A DNA stretch of 64,000 nt from Saprospiraceae bacterium (lineage in GTDB: Bacteria > Bacteroidota > Bacteroidia > Chitinophagales > Saprospiraceae), in NCBI GenBank assembly GCA_027488935.1, contig JAIYAP010000013.1, forward strand, positions 62,001 through 126,000, read 5' to 3'. This document shows positions 15,533 to 32,278 of this stretch, piece after piece; the first letter of the stretch is position 1; the number at the start of each line of letters is the position of its first letter. The notes under the pieces were generated by a model. That model made no database searches, was not told where the DNA came from, and was given only the letters and a program-made list of their open reading frames with translations. The position numbers and the translations under genes are program-made.

Positions 15533-15660
15533 TTCGACTTCTCCGAAGTCGTGAGCGGGTTCGGGCATGGTATCTTTCTACAAATATTCGACCTCTCGCG
15601 AGGTCGTCGCGTTGCCCAATGATATTTTTTCCGCACGACCTCGCTAGAGGTCGAATATCT
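15533..15660. repeat. Cluster of CGACCTCxxGAGGTCG palindromes
   Basis: Three hairpin-forming words follow each other: CGACTTCtccGAAGTCG (15537-15553), a second near 15590 (CGACCTCtcgcGAGGTCG) and a third near 15637 (CGACCTCgctaGAGGTCG). The latter two are flanked by ATATTCGA/TCGAATAT, so they can also pair with each other. No gene lies here. A fragment of similar sequence is present at about 51872-51895. Confidence 0.7.
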
Positions 15661-20027: not shown

Positions 20028-20060
20028 CACGCCCAGCTCAAAATGTTTTCGCGGTACTCC

Positions 20061-20127
20061 CTTTCCGGTACACCTGACACGTCGGAAGCGTTCGAAACGC
20101 TTCCGACGTGTCAGGTGTACCGGAAAG
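20061..20127. repeat. Perfect 32-bp inverted repeat with 3-base centre
   Basis: The arm at 20061-20092 (starting CTTTCCGGTACACCTGAC) is matched without error by its reverse complement at 20096-20127, leaving only CGA in the middle. It could form a 32-bp stem or a DNA cruciform. It is followed by the motif GTTTTGTTAAACAAAAGATCC (only part quoted as a word) and AACAACGAGGGCTGTCATC, which resemble the arms of the large repeats near 28 kb. Confidence 0.9.
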
Positions 20128-20367
20128 GCTTCCGAACATTTTTACACAGGGGCCCACACGTAGTTTTGACACCCAGCGTTTTGTTAAACAAAAGATCCAA
20201 TGCACATAACAACGAGGGCTGTCATCATCCGCCGCGCGTGGCCTTCATTCCTGAAGCGCTCGACGCTCCATGCTGCTAAAAATTAAAGGTTTCTCTCCAT
20301 CCCCTTGGCACAATTCCTGCAATACCCCTAATATTGCATCGACTTTCACGACTTAGGAAAATTTCAA

Positions 20368-26747: not shown

Positions 26748-27923
26748 TCAATCCTTAACCACTTTCAAAACCTGGTTTAAATCCCCGCCGATCACTAAAT
26801 AGTACACTCCTTTTGATAAGTTTGTTATATCCACGCTGGTGTTTTCTGAATTTATTTTCCCAGACAATAGGGGCCTTCCGAATGGATCAAACACCCTGTA
26901 GTCGACCCCAACTAAAGCGGCATTTGCTTGAATATAAAGTCGATCGCAGGCCGGGTTTGGATAAACGCCTATTTGGATTTCCTTTTTATCTTCCGTGCCT
27001 ACCACAGTCGCGCAATCTGAAAAGTAATTGGTAATATAGGATTTTTGTGCAGCGTTCGTCTGATGCCCCGCGCTGCCTTTAATAAGCACCACCGCGCCCG
27101 ATAAATACGAAAATTCCGTAATTTCAGAAGATCCACTGCCCATTACCGTCCCAGCAGTTAAAATACTTCCGGTATAACCTTTGTAAGTTGCAACATGGTG
27201 GGCTGCGGTTTCAGCAGGCAAAAAATTTGCGCCTACGACAGAAGTGCCACCCAGGTATGGAATAATGGGATCGTTGACATTGCTGATGCTCAAGTATTTT
27301 GTGGTGTTTAAAGGGCTTGAAACAACATCGTAGCCACAGAATGAACCATTGGTGTTCGTAATACCACTTGGTTTGTAAAAATTTCCCGCATGATATTGGA
27401 AATCATTCAAATGGGAAACGGTTGCACATACGATATCAATTCCCGGATTCGTATTTTCGATCCAAAACCGATTGGCCAGGCCCGCTCCGTTGGATCCCCC
27501 TAATACACGAATTTTATTGGAGTTTACGTTGGAGTAGCTTTGCAATTGTAGCACAAGATCTTTTAGCATTTCAACATCGGGCGCGTCGCTGTTTTCAGCG
27601 CAAATATTCCAACTGTTTTCAAATCCGGTTGGAGCAACCAGTATGTGACATGGAAGTACCGCACCAAATTGCATCGGACCAAGCATGGGTGGTCCCGCCA
27701 AAACCCCCAGGTTCTGCGAACCATTGCCATGTAGTAAGATGCATACCGGAAATCCACCCGGTGGAACCGGACCACTTGGAACAGCGATACTAATCGGGTA
27801 GGTGTATCCACCCGGTTGCGACGACCATGTTTTTGTAATGGGAATATTTGTACCATTGGTTAAAACCTGCGCAAACCCAGGGATTGGGCACAAAATCAGT
27901 GCAATGAAAAGTGTTTTAAACAT
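26748..27923 (-). CDS. Secreted alpha/beta-hydrolase (esterase/depolymerase-like) with type IX sorting domain
   Basis: A 391-residue protein: signal peptide (MFKTLFIALILCPIPGFAQ), an alpha/beta-hydrolase domain (about 35-300) and a type A C-terminal sorting domain (about 315-391, IGVYPNPACDRLYIQ, VFDPFGRPLLSG, SKGVYYLVI). The hydrolase part has CILLHGNGSQN as oxyanion strand, the nucleophile elbow GGSNGAG (serine), NDPIIPY with a candidate acid, and GSAGHQT with the catalytic histidine. This resembles secreted poly(hydroxyalkanoate)- or feruloyl-esterase-like enzymes, but the substrate cannot be named. It is expected to be exported through the type IX system. It lies alone, beside the large structured repeats. 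Confidence 0.82.
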   Translation of the reverse strand: MFKTLFIALILCPIPGFAQVLTNGTNIPITKTWSSQPGGYTYPISIAVPSGPVPPGGFPVCILLHGNGSQNLGVLAGPPMLGPMQFGAVLPCHILVAPTGFENSWNICAENSDAPDVEMLKDLVLQLQSYSNVNSNKIRVLGGSNGAGLANRFWIENTNPGIDIVCATVSHLNDFQYHAGNFYKPSGITNTNGSFCGYDVVSSPLNTTKYLSISNVNDPIIPYLGGTSVVGANFLPAETAAHHVATYKGYTGSILTAGTVMGSGSSEITEFSYLSGAVVLIKGSAGHQTNAAQKSYITNYFSDCATVVGTEDKKEIQIGVYPNPACDRLYIQANAALVGVDYRVFDPFGRPLLSGKINSENTSVDITNLSKGVYYLVIGGDLNQVLKVVKD

Positions 27924-28083
27924 GTTGAGCGTGGTGATGTAATTTGAAATGTTTCAAATATGCGACAATTATACCCAGGATGATAGATTACGTTGTATTT
28001 AATTTCCAGGATTTTTGTTAAATGAAAGATCCAATGATTATAACAACGTGTGCTTTGCTAAACATAAGATCATAAGCCCATAA

Positions 28084-28304
28084 CAACGTGGGCTGTCATC
28101 CTGAGGTTTTTTACTTCCCCCCTAAAGAGTCTAAAATAACCGAAAATCTAAAAGGGGGGAGTAAAAAGGCGAAGGATCTACCCAGGCGCAGGGCTCAATC
28201 CTCCCCTGGCTAGATCCTTCAGTCCGTTTCTTTCCCTTTAACATTTCTGGTAATCAATGATTTGTTCGGGAAAGAAACAGCCTTCAGGATGACAGCTCAC
28301 GTTG
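28084..28304. repeat. Cloverleaf-type repeat element, copy 1
   Basis: Outer arms around CTGTCATCCTGA (28084-28104) and TCAGGATGACAG (28284-28304) enclose three internal hairpins: TACTTCCCCCC/GGGGGGAGTA, GGATCTAcCC/GGcTAGATCC and GTTTCTTTCCC/GGGAAAGAAAC. A leader repeat, ACGTGTGCTTTGCTAAACA then AGATCATAAGCCC, precedes it from about 28018. Confidence 0.85.
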
Positions 28305-28390
28305 ATTTTAACATGCAGATTTTTATTAAACGAAAGTCCCAATGTCCATATCAACGTGTGCTTTGCTAAACAAAAGATCATAAGCCCATA

Positions 28391-28634
28391 TCAACGTGCG
28401 CTGTCATCCTGAGTCTTTTTACTTCCCCCGAAATAGTCTACAATAACCTAAAATCTAAAAGGGGGGAAGAAAAAAGGCGAAGGATCTAGCCAAGCGCAAG
28501 GCGAAATCCCGCTAAGGGCAGCGCCCAATTACGCCTGGCTAGATCCTTCAGTCCGTTTCTTTCCCTTTAACATTTCTGGTAATCAATGATTTGTTCGGGA
28601 AAGAAACAGCCTTCAGGATGACAGATCACGTTGA
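28391..28634. repeat. Cloverleaf-type repeat element, copy 2 (best preserved)
   Basis: A 244-bp unit. The outer arms 28391-28412 and 28613-28634 pair at 20 of 22 positions. Inside are hairpin b (about 28415-28429 with 28462-28476, CTTCCCCC/GGGGGAAG), hairpin c (28479-28491 GAAGGATCTAGCC with 28537-28549) and hairpin d (28555-28565 GTTTCTTTCCC with 28597-28607). The leader repeat with TGCTTTGCTAAACAAAAG precedes it (about 28320-28390). Confidence 0.88.
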
Positions 28635-28682
28635 TTTTGACTTTACGGGCTTTATCAAACTAAAGATCTACACTTTATGTAA

Positions 28683-28822
28683 TCGTGAGCTGTCATCCTG
28701 AGTCTTTTTTCTTCCCCGTCTCAATCTCAAATAACTAAGAATCATCAGGGGGGAAGAAAAAAGGCGAAGGATCTACCCAAGCGCAAGGCGAAATCCCGCT
28801 AAGGGCAGCGCCCAATTACGCC
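28683..28822. repeat. Cloverleaf-type repeat element, copy 3, truncated
   Basis: Left outer arm (GTGAGCTGTCATCCTGA), hairpin b and the left part of hairpin c are present and nearly identical to copy 2, up to CCCAATTACGCC; the rest is missing. The break lies about 30 bases upstream of the promoter of the AAA-ATPase gene. Confidence 0.85.
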
Positions 28823-28849
28823 CAAACTTCCATTTCAGCAATAGTTCTG

Positions 28850-28857
28850 TATCTTTG
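28850..28857 (+). promoter_or_regulatory. -7 promoter box TATCTTTG before the AAA-ATPase gene
   Basis: TATCTTTG matches TAnnTTTG exactly and lies 25 bases upstream of the ATG, directly after the truncated third repeat copy. Confidence 0.55.
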
Positions 28858-28882
28858 TACCAAAAGTAGAATTACAATACCG

Positions 28883-30427
28883 ATGAGCAAAAAACTTCCA
28901 CTGGGGCTACAGGATTTTCGAAAAATCATCGAGCATGATTTCATGTACATCGACAAGACCGAGTACATCTACCGGATGGTAAGTAGGCCAGGTGCTTATT
29001 TCCTTTCCCGTCCCCGTCGTTTTGGCAAGTCCATCACATTGGCTGTGCTCCAGGAGTTGTACAGTGGCAGCAAGGAGTTGTTCAAAGGCTTATGGATTGA
29101 AGACAAGTGGGATTGGAGCCGGAAACATCCGGTGATTCGGATTTCGTTCACCTCTATTGGGTTTCAAAGTTTGGGGCTTGATGTTGCTTTGAACCAGGAG
29201 CTGAACAATCAAGCCAAAGCGTTAGGGATTGTGCTGGAGAACATAGGCAATGCGAATAAATTCAAAGAACTCATCACCAAGCTTGCCACGGAAAGCAAAG
29301 TAGTTGTATTGATCGATGAATACGATGCACCGATCATCAATTACCTGGGAAAGGAAATCGAAAAAGCCTACCAAAATCGCGACCTTTTAAAAGAGTTTTA
29401 CACCGTTCTAAAAGACCTTGACGCTGCTATCGAATTCGTGTTTCTCACGGGAGTCAGCAAGTTTTCCAAAGTAGGCATTTTCTCCGGGTTGAATAACTTG
29501 ACGGACTTGACCATGCAGTCGGACTATGCTACGATGCTGGGCTATACGCAGGCAGAATTGGAAAGCAATTTTACCGAAGAAATTGATGCAGTTTCCATTC
29601 AGTTAAAAATGACCCGAACGGAGTTACTGGACAAAATGCGCCTTTGGTACAATGGCTATCGCTTCCATGTTAACTCGGAAACGGTCTACAATCCGGTTTC
29701 CATCAACCTGTTTTTCAACCAAAAAGAGTTTGAAAACTTCTGGTTTGCTACCGGAACACCCACCTTTTTGATCAACTTATTGAAACAAGAGGGCTTGTAC
29801 GATATTGAGCACCAGGAGCACGCCCAACTTGACTTCGACAGTTTTGACCTCGAAGATTTACGGGCTTATGGGCTGCTGTACCAAACCGGCTACCTGACCA
29901 TCAAATCCAGAAACGAATTTGGCTTGTATATCCTGGATTATCCCAACCATGAGGTCAAAAACTCCATGTACGCTTATTTGCTGGAAGCTTTTGGCGGGGT
30001 GCGCAAAGGCCAGGGGCTGGTAGTAGCCGTGCAATTAGAACGGGCTTTTTATGCCAATGATCTGGAGCAAGTCATCCGCATTTTGCAAGCCATGTTCAAA
30101 GGTTTGCCGCACTTGTTGCACGAAAAATACCCGGAGAAATTTTTCCACGCTGCCATCCATCTTCTGTTCAAGTACATGGGTCTACGGGTGCAAAGCGAAG
30201 TGATGATGAGCGATGCACGCGCCGATTGTGTGGTGGAAACGGACGTACACGTCTACATCCTGGAGTTCAAACTTGATAAAAGTGCCGAAGTTGCGCTTGA
30301 GCAGATCAAACTTAAAAAATACCACCAGGCGTATTGGGAAAAAGGTAAAAAGGTGATCGGCGTTGGGGTGAATTTTTCGAGTGAAACCAAGAATATTGAG
30401 GACTGGGTTGAGGAGGAGTTGGGGTGA
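28883..30427 (+). CDS. AAA-ATPase-like protein with C-terminal PD-(D/E)XK nuclease domain
   Basis: The 514-residue protein belongs to the family with an N-terminal AAA-ATPase-like domain and a C-terminal PDDEXK_9-type domain. Seen are the lead-in LPLGLQDFRKIIEHDFMYIDKT, Walker A RPRRFGKS (43-50), Walker B VVLIDEYD (141-148), the sensor-like FLTGVSKFSK, and the nuclease core with Asp448 (ARADCVV), Glu461 and Lys463 (ILEFK). Such genes are present in many copies in Bacteroidota genomes and are thought to act on DNA, perhaps as selfish or anti-phage elements; their role is not established. Both domains look intact. The gene is bracketed by copies of a large structured repeat (copies 1-3 upstream, copy 4 downstream). 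Confidence 0.88.
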   Translation: MSKKLPLGLQDFRKIIEHDFMYIDKTEYIYRMVSRPGAYFLSRPRRFGKSITLAVLQELYSGSKELFKGLWIEDKWDWSRKHPVIRISFTSIGFQSLGLDVALNQELNNQAKALGIVLENIGNANKFKELITKLATESKVVVLIDEYDAPIINYLGKEIEKAYQNRDLLKEFYTVLKDLDAAIEFVFLTGVSKFSKVGIFSGLNNLTDLTMQSDYATMLGYTQAELESNFTEEIDAVSIQLKMTRTELLDKMRLWYNGYRFHVNSETVYNPVSINLFFNQKEFENFWFATGTPTFLINLLKQEGLYDIEHQEHAQLDFDSFDLEDLRAYGLLYQTGYLTIKSRNEFGLYILDYPNHEVKNSMYAYLLEAFGGVRKGQGLVVAVQLERAFYANDLEQVIRILQAMFKGLPHLLHEKYPEKFFHAAIHLLFKYMGLRVQSEVMMSDARADCVVETDVHVYILEFKLDKSAEVALEQIKLKKYHQAYWEKGKKVIGVGVNFSSETKNIEDWVEEELG

Positions 30428-30506
30428 AAAGTGCGGCTGTTTTTCAGGTTCTCATTGATGCCATAACAACGTGTGCTTTGCTAAACAAAAGATCATAAGC
30501 CCGAAA

Positions 30507-30725
30507 CAACGTGAGCTGTCATCCTGAGTCTTTTTTCTTCCCCCGAAATAGTCTATAATAACCTAAAATCTAAAAGGGGGAAGAAAAAAGGCGAAGGATC
30601 TAGCCAAGGGTAGCGCTCAATCCGGCCTGGCTAGATCCTTCAGTCCGTTTCTTTCCCTTTAACATAGCGCGCAATCAATGATCCGAACGGGAAAGAAACA
30701 GCCTTCAGGATGACAGCCCACGTTG
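30507..30725. repeat. Cloverleaf-type repeat element, copy 4
   Basis: Full unit downstream of the AAA-ATPase gene. Outer arms at 30507-30527 and 30705-30725; internal arms CTTCCCCC/GGGGGAAG, GGATCTAGCC/GGCTAGATCC and GTTTCTTTCCC/GGGAAAGAAAC are all kept, while loops differ from copy 2. The leader repeat with TGTGCTTTGCTAAACAAAAG is present at 30468-30500, and CAGCGTTTTGCTAAACGAAA follows at about 30736. Confidence 0.87.
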
Positions 30726-30772
30726 ATTTTAACACTCAGCGTTTTGCTAAACGAAACCCCTCAATCCCCCCA

Positions 30773-32278
30773 TCACCGCCCAATCCGAACCACCGACCAC
30801 GACGATACCTTGTACCCATCCTTATAAGCAGGCGTCCAATAGTCCGACGCTCTTTTTAACACCGACAGTGCTTTTTTATCGACTGCAGCGCCTACACCGC
30901 TGAATAACTCCATGTATCGCACATTGCCGTTTTCAGGCACCAAAATCCGGATCAGAATTTCCCCGCCAGGCGGAAGCTCGGATTTATAGCGGGGCCAGTG
31001 AAGCACCACAAGTTCGTCAATACTCTTCGGGCCAAAGCGGAAAACCGCTGGCTGGTCTACCTCAACGGATTCAAATAGGGTATCGCACCGACTATCCGAC
31101 CACAACTGAGCGACCGGAAGGGCACTTTTACTAAAAACGAGCTGGGCTTCATGCTGGCAACTGTTTTCTTCCAGACCGCGGTGGAAATACAAAAAGCGTT
31201 TAATCTGCATGCGGCAGGGGCGGTTGCAGCACCTCGAAGCAGTCCATTCCTTGGTTTCGATAAATTTTCGGGCCAGTGCGCGTTGGTTTTCCGAGGCGTT
31301 GCCCCCGACCTCAATTGCGCTTGCTTTACCGTTTTTTTCTACAATAAAATTGACTTCCACCATGGCGTTGTTATACGGAACCAGGTTAAAATCCTCACCC
31401 AGTACATATTTGGCGTTCAGGAAAACCGGCTTTGTATGTGCCAGTAATTGATTATCGTATTTGCTGTCGGGCGGGAGGATTTCACCTTCTGTGTATAGTT
31501 TATCCGAGGTTTCAATTGCCGCAGGATCCGGACAGAACACATAGATAAATTCGTGCGAAGAGGCATAAGTGGAATCAAATACCTGGGCGGGAACCCAATT
31601 TTTGAGCAGCCGGGTTAGGCGCAGCGCTTCTTCCCCGCAACCGTACCCGATATCGTTTAAAAGGGTCAGGTCCGTCAGGCTGCCGTCGGGTTGCAGGGTA
31701 GCGGTGACGCCCACCTCCCCCTGTATCCCGGCGGCCTTTGCTGCTTCGGGATAACGTTGTTTGGCGGCAAGCGTATCTTCCGGGTTGTATCCCATAAACC
31801 GCTCCTCCGTTGGGAAACCGAGTTTAGGGTAATCAGCAGGATCGATGGCTTGCAAACTGGCATAATCGTTCACGTGTAAATAATGTTCCTGCACAACCAC
31901 CCTTTTCGTGGGATGGTGAAAAAAGAAACATAAAAACATCAATTGCCGCACCGAATGTCCGTTGGCTTCAGCCGAATTCCATTTCTTGCCTTGCATCGCC
32001 TTTATAACCGCGGCAGTGAATGCCGGGCCGGGCGTTTGAAAAATACGCAAATCAGAAACAACGCCATCATGTTCCACCACGAAGCCGACAACCAGGCGGT
32101 TACCGCTTGACCGGATGGTTGTATCGGTAGGGTAGGGGGTGTTTTTGAAATAATCACGAAACGCCAATTGACCGCCTGGGAAACTGGCAGGTTTGGATAA
32201 ATCCCAGTTCAGGAAGACACGGTCGGATTGGGCGGAGAGTAGGGTGGTGAGTAGGAGTAGGGGGAGGGTGGATTTCAT
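30773..32278 (-). CDS. Periplasmic protein made of repeated TonB C-terminal-like modules
   Basis: A 501-residue protein with a short signal peptide (MKSTLPLLLLTTLLSAQS). About four stretches look like TonB_C domains: 60-110 (VGFVVEHDGVVSDLRIFQTP), 165-250 (the clearest, YPEAAKAAGIQGEVGVTATL, QPDGSLTDLTLLND, EEALRLTRLLKNWVPA), 285-345 (VEVNFIVEKNGKASAIEVGG) and 440-501 (GGEILIRILVPENGNVRYME). There is no N-terminal anchor or proline-rich linker as in energy transducers, so it is not a standard TonB. Such modules in Bacteroidota often occur in periplasmic proteins of unknown role. Paired cysteines occur at CCNRPC. Domain call good, function unknown. Confidence 0.72.
   Translation of the reverse strand: MKSTLPLLLLTTLLSAQSDRVFLNWDLSKPASFPGGQLAFRDYFKNTPYPTDTTIRSSGNRLVVGFVVEHDGVVSDLRIFQTPGPAFTAAVIKAMQGKKWNSAEANGHSVRQLMFLCFFFHHPTKRVVVQEHYLHVNDYASLQAIDPADYPKLGFPTEERFMGYNPEDTLAAKQRYPEAAKAAGIQGEVGVTATLQPDGSLTDLTLLNDIGYGCGEEALRLTRLLKNWVPAQVFDSTYASSHEFIYVFCPDPAAIETSDKLYTEGEILPPDSKYDNQLLAHTKPVFLNAKYVLGEDFNLVPYNNAMVEVNFIVEKNGKASAIEVGGNASENQRALARKFIETKEWTASRCCNRPCRMQIKRFLYFHRGLEENSCQHEAQLVFSKSALPVAQLWSDSRCDTLFESVEVDQPAVFRFGPKSIDELVVLHWPRYKSELPPGGEILIRILVPENGNVRYMELFSGVGAAVDKKALSVLKRASDYWTPAYKDGYKVSSWSVVRIGR

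Follow-up and report, generated by a model that had tools for sequence, protein, structure and literature searches.

The window, that is, the whole 64,000-nt stretch of DNA analysed here, contains four copies of a large palindromic repeat around the open reading frame at 28883-30427, which encodes a protein with an AAA-ATPase_like domain (PF09820) and a PDDEXK_9 domain (PF08011) and for which PADLOC returned no family. The layout described in the initial annotation, with two full copies and one cut copy before this gene and one full copy after it, is completely present (Table 1), and the full copies have CTGTCATCCTGA / TCAGGATGACAG at their ends and show, in fixed order, the three hairpins that had been reported for them. 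Copies 1-3 are situated between divergent genes and copy 4 between convergent genes. The leader repeat that had been noticed among the copies occurs above chance, since its word is matched eight times in the window compared to 1.4 expected matches; away from the copies it is found at 20178-20194, where it adjoins a broken repeat. Sequences with at most one mismatch to TGTCATCCTGA occur 10 times in the window compared to 0.7 expected, and all seven exact matches are located within the four copies.

Table 1. Positions of the repeat copies, their leaders, a remnant and the gene cassette in the window.
Feature	Position	Strand	Details
Leader, two 40-nt repeats preceding copy 1	28014..28093	+	repeats end in AACGTG and three further letters
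Copy 1, full head-to-head dimer	28094..28294	+	left unit 28094-28184, right unit 28207-28294 (-); outer pairing extends to about 28084/28304
Leader, two 40-nt repeats between copy 1 and copy 2	28322..28401	+	
Copy 2, full dimer	28402..28623	+	left unit 28402-28492, right unit 28536-28623 (-); middle hairpin arms 28479-28492 and 28536-28549
Leader, one 40-nt repeat preceding copy 3	28651..28690	+	
Copy 3, cut	28691..28821	+	left unit 28691-28779 and the 5' half of the middle hairpin
Gene cassette with its own upstream region	28822..30450	+	ORF 28883-30427; separate from the repeat
Leader, one 40-nt repeat preceding copy 4	30477..30516	+	
Copy 4, full dimer	30517..30715	+	left unit 30517-30606, right unit 30628-30715 (-)
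Remnant, leader and initial letters of a unit, remainder lost	20180..20226	+	C51:82180-82226

Each full copy is arranged as leader, left unit, middle hairpin and inverted right unit. The unit, which measures 88-91 nt in the window and 87-91 nt over 20 aligned units, begins with TGTCATCCTGA, continues with a 16-17-bp hairpin bearing a loop of about 30 nt and ends with GAAGGATCTRGCCA; its REP part is TGTC-tagged and reads TGTCATCCTGA...GAAGGATCT. As the two units of a dimer are inverted relative to each other, the outer stem is formed by pairing of the TGTCATCCTGA ends and the middle hairpin by pairing of the GAAGGATCTAGCC ends, and the three-hairpin form thus arises from two inverted REPs that each bear a loop hairpin. 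Folded as RNA, copy 2 reaches -105.4 kcal/mol compared to -54.6 +/- 4.4 kcal/mol for 200 shuffled versions, none of which was as low (z -11.7), while its opposite strand reaches -112.6 kcal/mol (z -10.3). The predicted fold is a stem with three hairpins, i.e. a four-way junction. Where a copy is cut, as in copy 3, the fold is that of one REP hairpin in which ATCCT/AGGAT flank the inner hairpin; several copies are halves or decayed. The earlier view that the stems are kept while the loops differ is correct across genomes; within the window it does not apply to copies 1 and 2, whose right-hand units are identical including the loop.

These features fit head-to-head REP dimers of the published CGTC super-family, from which the repeats differ in the loop, and the membership in a REP-like family that had been proposed is supported by the TGTC tag, the opening of the stem and the head-to-head dimers. 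In the parts of the survey by Di Nocera, De Gregorio and Rocco (2013, PMC3733652) used here, REPs of the CGTC type are described as mainly head-to-head (HH) dimers without a dedicated transposase, and no dedicated enzyme is given for them. As in that description, the units carry the TGTC tag on the outside and their stems open with A-T followed by T-A, the dimers are often composed of two different units and some are found within larger palindromes, and no dedicated transposase adjoins them as far as the 23 Y1-transposase loci surveyed in six genomes go. The tag is TGTC in 19 of the 20 aligned units and TATC in the remaining one, and in full dimers it pairs with the tag of the partner unit in the outer stem. 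ATCCT/AGGAT, together with the tandem G-A and the pair that follows it, gives a stem of 8-9 bp if, by our choice, the tandem G-A is counted as stem; the first pair is A-T in 19/20 and the second T-A in 20/20 units, and the pair after the tandem G-A is standard in 13/20. Three of the four window copies are full dimers with the tags outside, the fourth being cut. As regards the short unpaired tail of the CCA type that belongs to such REPs, many units end with CTRGCCA, but these letters are paired in the middle hairpin of the dimers.

The loop, in contrast, sets the repeats apart. According to Table 1 of PMC3733652, CGTC/TGTC REPs have loops of 4-5 nt with few exceptions, whereas about 60 nt separate the REP halves in the window units, and these form the 16-17-bp hairpin with its loop of about 30 nt that gives rise to the four-way junction. 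A further difference is that the window units occur in short tandem arrays with the 40-nt leader, while grouped CGTC elements are called rare in the portion of that survey used here. The open literature that was searched yielded no description of hairpin-bearing CGTC REP loops, and we read this loop as what is new in the repeats compared to known CGTC REPs. Units of this kind show that in such a REP conservation lies in the two ends, while other palindromes are tolerated in the loop.

Since the genome searches scored part of the first-look candidates, all lists of units represent lower bounds. In the own genome, where 150 of 2608 candidates were scored, at least 26 model matches were obtained at E up to 0.1, of which 14 represent hairpin-bearing units, 11 are antisense reads of units and one is a weak match; the 26 listed matches include no plain REP of this form. 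Together with a half unit on C55 that was detected by DNA search, the matches define six loci. Among the 42 genomes of the genus that were searched, 12 gave a model match, and the hairpin-bearing unit was present in four (G000, G023, G004 and G012). Another member of the genus, G014, gave 38 model matches to plain REPs. The eight stretches of this genome that were read display REPs of 27-28 nt with only a few nt between the REP halves, mostly arranged as inverted pairs 37-40 nt apart and in some cases repeated at about 109 nt. Among 20 exact matches, the tandem G-A is adjoined by an A-T pair in 13 and by a G-C pair in 7. At the level of the phylum, the unit model matched three of 296 genomes besides the own one. 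Two of them, G190 and G238, come from the same other family and have their own inner hairpin, and G154 contains plain REPs. A looser pattern matched 17 of 395 phylum genomes, the own one included. When one to three of these matches per genome were re-folded, a clear inner hairpin was obtained in G190 (z -3.7) and a possible one in G325 (z -2.5), and the remaining matches that were folded outside the own genome represented weakly structured loops or REP clusters. In G152, G222, G250 and G360, which belong to the family of G190 and G238, the REP halves are 37-39 nt apart, and in the two or three matches folded for each genome this stretch mostly lacks a stable fold; this indicates that long-loop REPs are more widely spread than hairpin-bearing ones.

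The initial annotation had asked for a check of compensatory changes in the stems, and the two-sided changes indeed exceed those of shuffled alignments, also within left and right units taken alone. Over 20 units from four genomes, 12 of the 22 pairs of the inserted hairpin change on both sides, and 54 two-sided cells were counted compared to 22.1 +/- 4.0 in 500 shuffles, which ignore the relatedness between rows and none of which reached the observed value. When the partner was slid by one base, pairing dropped from 92% to 59-66%. Left and right units were also counted separately because part of the signal represents one left/right contrast: the left units (13 rows) have 12 two-sided cells compared to 4.4 in shuffles and the right units (12 rows) have 8 compared to 1.9. 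The number of further pair types does not go beyond the shuffles for all units (90/500 as high), the corresponding values being 38/500 for left and 4/500 for right units. The right unit of copy 1 was omitted from alignments A2, A4 and A6 because its counterpart in copy 2 has the identical sequence; also omitted were the insert-bearing units (L044 left, L050 left) as well as those of L051 and L096:1-87, which are cut, and A4 corresponds to A2 minus three rows. The outer stem and the middle hairpin vary little by eye. The comparison of these alignments supports the view that the arms of the inserted hairpin are really kept paired while their letters change.

Template switching or selection could be responsible for keeping the arms paired. 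Template switching has been described as a mutational route that makes and keeps perfect stems and leads to multi-base compensatory changes (Monttinen and Loytynoja 2022, PMC8794818); as far as the sections of this source used here go, that system concerns RNA genes, while the present case concerns REPs. One position of the left units, with a mismatch in four copies, T-A in six and A-T in three, would be expected from arm copying and from compensation alike. At the base of the hairpin, 12 of 13 left units retain a T-G pair, and 11 of 12 right units have a mismatch there that is mostly G-A; pure arm copying is doubted because of these steady non-standard positions. Related stems with so many two-sided changes offer a natural case for separating template-switch repair from selection on RNA.

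In this regard a structured RNA family has to be considered, in which the four-way fold would be transcribed and selected, serving as a 3'-end stabiliser, terminator or regulator. The strong fold on both strands of copy 2, the two-sided changes in the hairpin arms and, at the base of the hairpin, the conservation of a T-G wobble and a tandem G-A, with the T-G also present in the G190 and G238 units, are in line with such an RNA. However, none of 4227 Rfam models matched positions 27900-30850 at E up to 1, the copies in the window lie between divergent as well as convergent genes and have no constant neighbour at the other loci, several copies are halved or decayed, and the hairpin is absent from plain REPs. 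Hence, we regard a selected RNA as an unlikely explanation of the repeats.

Hairpins that are probably related to the one in the REP loop also occur outside REPs. The unit model identified two hairpins outside any REP, one in G033 and one in G021, a second model that was built including these two found four further ones in G021, and one more is located in the atpD-atpC spacer of G021, giving seven in total. With L154 left out, 26-28 of the 28 innermost arm positions are Watson-Crick paired in five of these free hairpins and 25 in one. Their arms differ from each other at 11-21 of 28 positions yet stay complementary, and they have no clear homology to the arms inside REPs. The free-hairpin loops resemble the REP-unit loops at p 0.002-0.018 in four of the seven cases, while p is 0.15-0.61 in the other three; the last of the seven, when reversed, gives p 0.083. 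Kinship of the free hairpins with those in the REP loops is therefore rated as probable only, because the search models score the loop and thus favour likeness. Four of five G021 hairpins end within about 15 nt of the starts of genes that, by sequence, resemble ABC-transporter permeases, and an ORF fragment of 124 aa at L152 matched no Pfam family. A precedent for insertion into a REP loop is provided by the dimer L093 in G006, in which one REP carries a 95-nt loop insert and the partner REP is plain.

The free hairpins, together with the insertion caught at L093, might point to a classical MITE family, i.e. a small transposon that repeatedly inserted in REP loops and whose terminal inverted repeats became the hairpin arms. 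We consider such an origin even less probable than a selected RNA, because the ends of a transposon should be its conserved part, while the arms of the free hairpins diverge and remain complementary. Moreover, no target-site duplication could be established, and in the full dimers that were read, both units bear the hairpin at the identical position.

A link of the repeats to the neighbouring ATPase/nuclease gene, which had been suggested from their arrangement, was not borne out. In five relatives of the gene (two on C77 and one each in G004, G012 and G023), the homology starts at window position 28821/28822; upstream of it the similarity among the relatives covers about a dozen letters at most before they diverge, and the homology ends 3-23 nt past the stop codon in the five copies with a visible right end. 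Since the homology is confined to the gene and its own upstream region, the gene represents a separate cassette, and copy 3 stops at its start. Three of the four PF09820 genes in the own genome have no unit in the surrounding 7-9 kb, one of these genes being 84% identical to the window gene at the protein level, and five of the six unit loci are without a PF09820 gene in the surrounding 6-8 kb. In G004, G012 and G023, none of seven DNA-level gene copies or fragments was on a unit-bearing contig, some of these contigs being short so that neighbours could lie beyond their ends. Overall, one of 11 related gene copies or fragments is near units, and the comparison of these four genomes gave no support for an excess of repeat copies near this gene family. 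The repeats thus seem not to be linked with the gene, and the earlier idea of recognition sites for the nuclease falls with the gene link. That the adjacent AAA-ATPase/PDDEXK nuclease recognises or targets the repeats and forms one system with them is very improbable in view of these counts, the cassette ends beside unrelated DNA in other copies and the lack of a PADLOC family for the gene, even though the copies flank it on both sides and chance alone would place a gene and a unit cluster within 2 kb of each other only about 0.02 times in the own genome, in a rough and post hoc estimate.

Our preferred reading, to which we assign a probability of roughly two in three, is that the repeat is a TGTC-tagged REP dimer with a second palindrome in the apical loop, which is non-autonomous and copied in trans and whose hairpin arms are kept paired mainly by template switching. 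The apical-loop palindrome consists of the 16-17-bp hairpin and the loop of about 30 nt that is alike between units, and it probably arose when a separate palindromic element entered the REP loop. The whole would represent non-autonomous palindromic DNA copied by an enzyme encoded elsewhere, and units and leader would have been built up as short tandem arrays. Template switching during replication may copy one arm onto the other, so that the hairpin stays mainly paired, with some selection acting on the fixed non-standard pairs at its base. An effect on neighbouring genes, as 3'-end hairpin or cruciform, is unproven.

Another known system is that of the REPINs, which go with RAYT transposases, are GTAG-tagged and consist of two inverted REPs that act as one non-autonomous unit. 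The window dimers likewise combine two inverted REPs in one unit that is probably non-autonomous, but they do not carry the GTAG tag. A link to RAYT genes is not supported, since neither this tag nor, at the loci examined, a cognate RAYT gene with the repeat in its flanks was found. Among 23 Y1-transposase loci in six genomes, several of which end at contig ends, none has a complete unit; they contain 11 single-word matches and in no case both unit halves. The flanks of five RAYT-like genes were inspected, and some of these genes adjoin other palindromes. The units of the own genome are found at six loci, in different intergenic sites with different neighbouring ORFs and no constant neighbour, and short unit arrays are present in three genomes (G000, G023 and G004), from which we infer that the unit moves; no empty site was found when the flanks of the window locus were compared with 41 relatives, which gave one weak match. 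On C50, one unit is interrupted by an IS110-family element (PF02371, PF01548) that is bordered by CT on either side. This insertion resembles the use of REP sequences as IS targets in the cases reported by Tobes and Pareja (2006, PMC1525189), as far as these are covered in the excerpts used here. In contrast to the full IS described in those excerpts, the loop hairpin of the window units contains no gene.

Finally, the turnover of arms might extend beyond the REPs. It is conceivable, and we put this forward as a tentative idea to which we would give clearly less than even odds, that intergenic hairpins in the genus persist in place and in pairing while template switching or palindrome swapping keeps replacing their arms, and that the REP loops carry one of them. 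If this were true, the atpD-atpC junction would display the same arm replacement as the REP loops. At this junction, a strong hairpin past the stop codon (z <= -3.4) is present in 19 of the 24 genomes examined, five being without it and 11 further matching genomes standing outside this count, and the arms of these hairpins are, by eye, of several unrelated kinds.

The AAA-ATPase/PDDEXK_9 gene beside the REP copies of the window behaves like a cassette of about 1.6 kb with its own ends, and on C77, a contig of the window's own genome, two copies of this cassette are arranged in tandem with a gap of about 20 nt. Some TGTC-tagged REP units carry insertions. In L050, a stretch of contig C50 of the same genome, the TGTCATC-CT-GAG core of one unit is interrupted by an IS110-family element. 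At two sites, in L044 and L050, one arm of the unit's hairpin holds other inserted palindromes, which are nested hairpin insertions.

Location of the cassette, insertions and further inverted repeats (L-numbers: stretches of the own genome and relatives)
Feature	Location	Remark
AAA-ATPase/PDDEXK_9 cassette	window 28822-30450; also L052, L125, L126, L127, L134	
IS110-family element	L050:1340-2917	inside REP unit core
Inserted palindromes	L044:2868-3016; L050:3024-3141	in one hairpin arm
Inverted repeat, 33-nt arms, 3-nt loop	window 20060-20128	close to leader remnant at 20180
Inverted repeat, 24-nt arms, 27-nt loop	window 15584-15658	

A strong hairpin (z <= -3.4) was found 3' of the atpD stop codon in 19 of the 24 atpD-atpC spacers of the genus included in the count (L097, L160-L182; 11 further matching genomes lie outside it), the remaining spacers being either shorter than 20 nt (two) or weak (three). 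The arms are, as judged by eye, of several unrelated kinds, and many of them are composed of short tandem repeats.

Near-perfect long hairpins were also observed in G021, a genome of the same genus, where they end within approximately 15 nt of the start codon; the four genes beside them are permease-like (L152, L154, L155, L060). Other palindromic repeats, unlike the TGTC repeat, occur near RAYT-like genes (PF01797; L040, L120, L121, L123).
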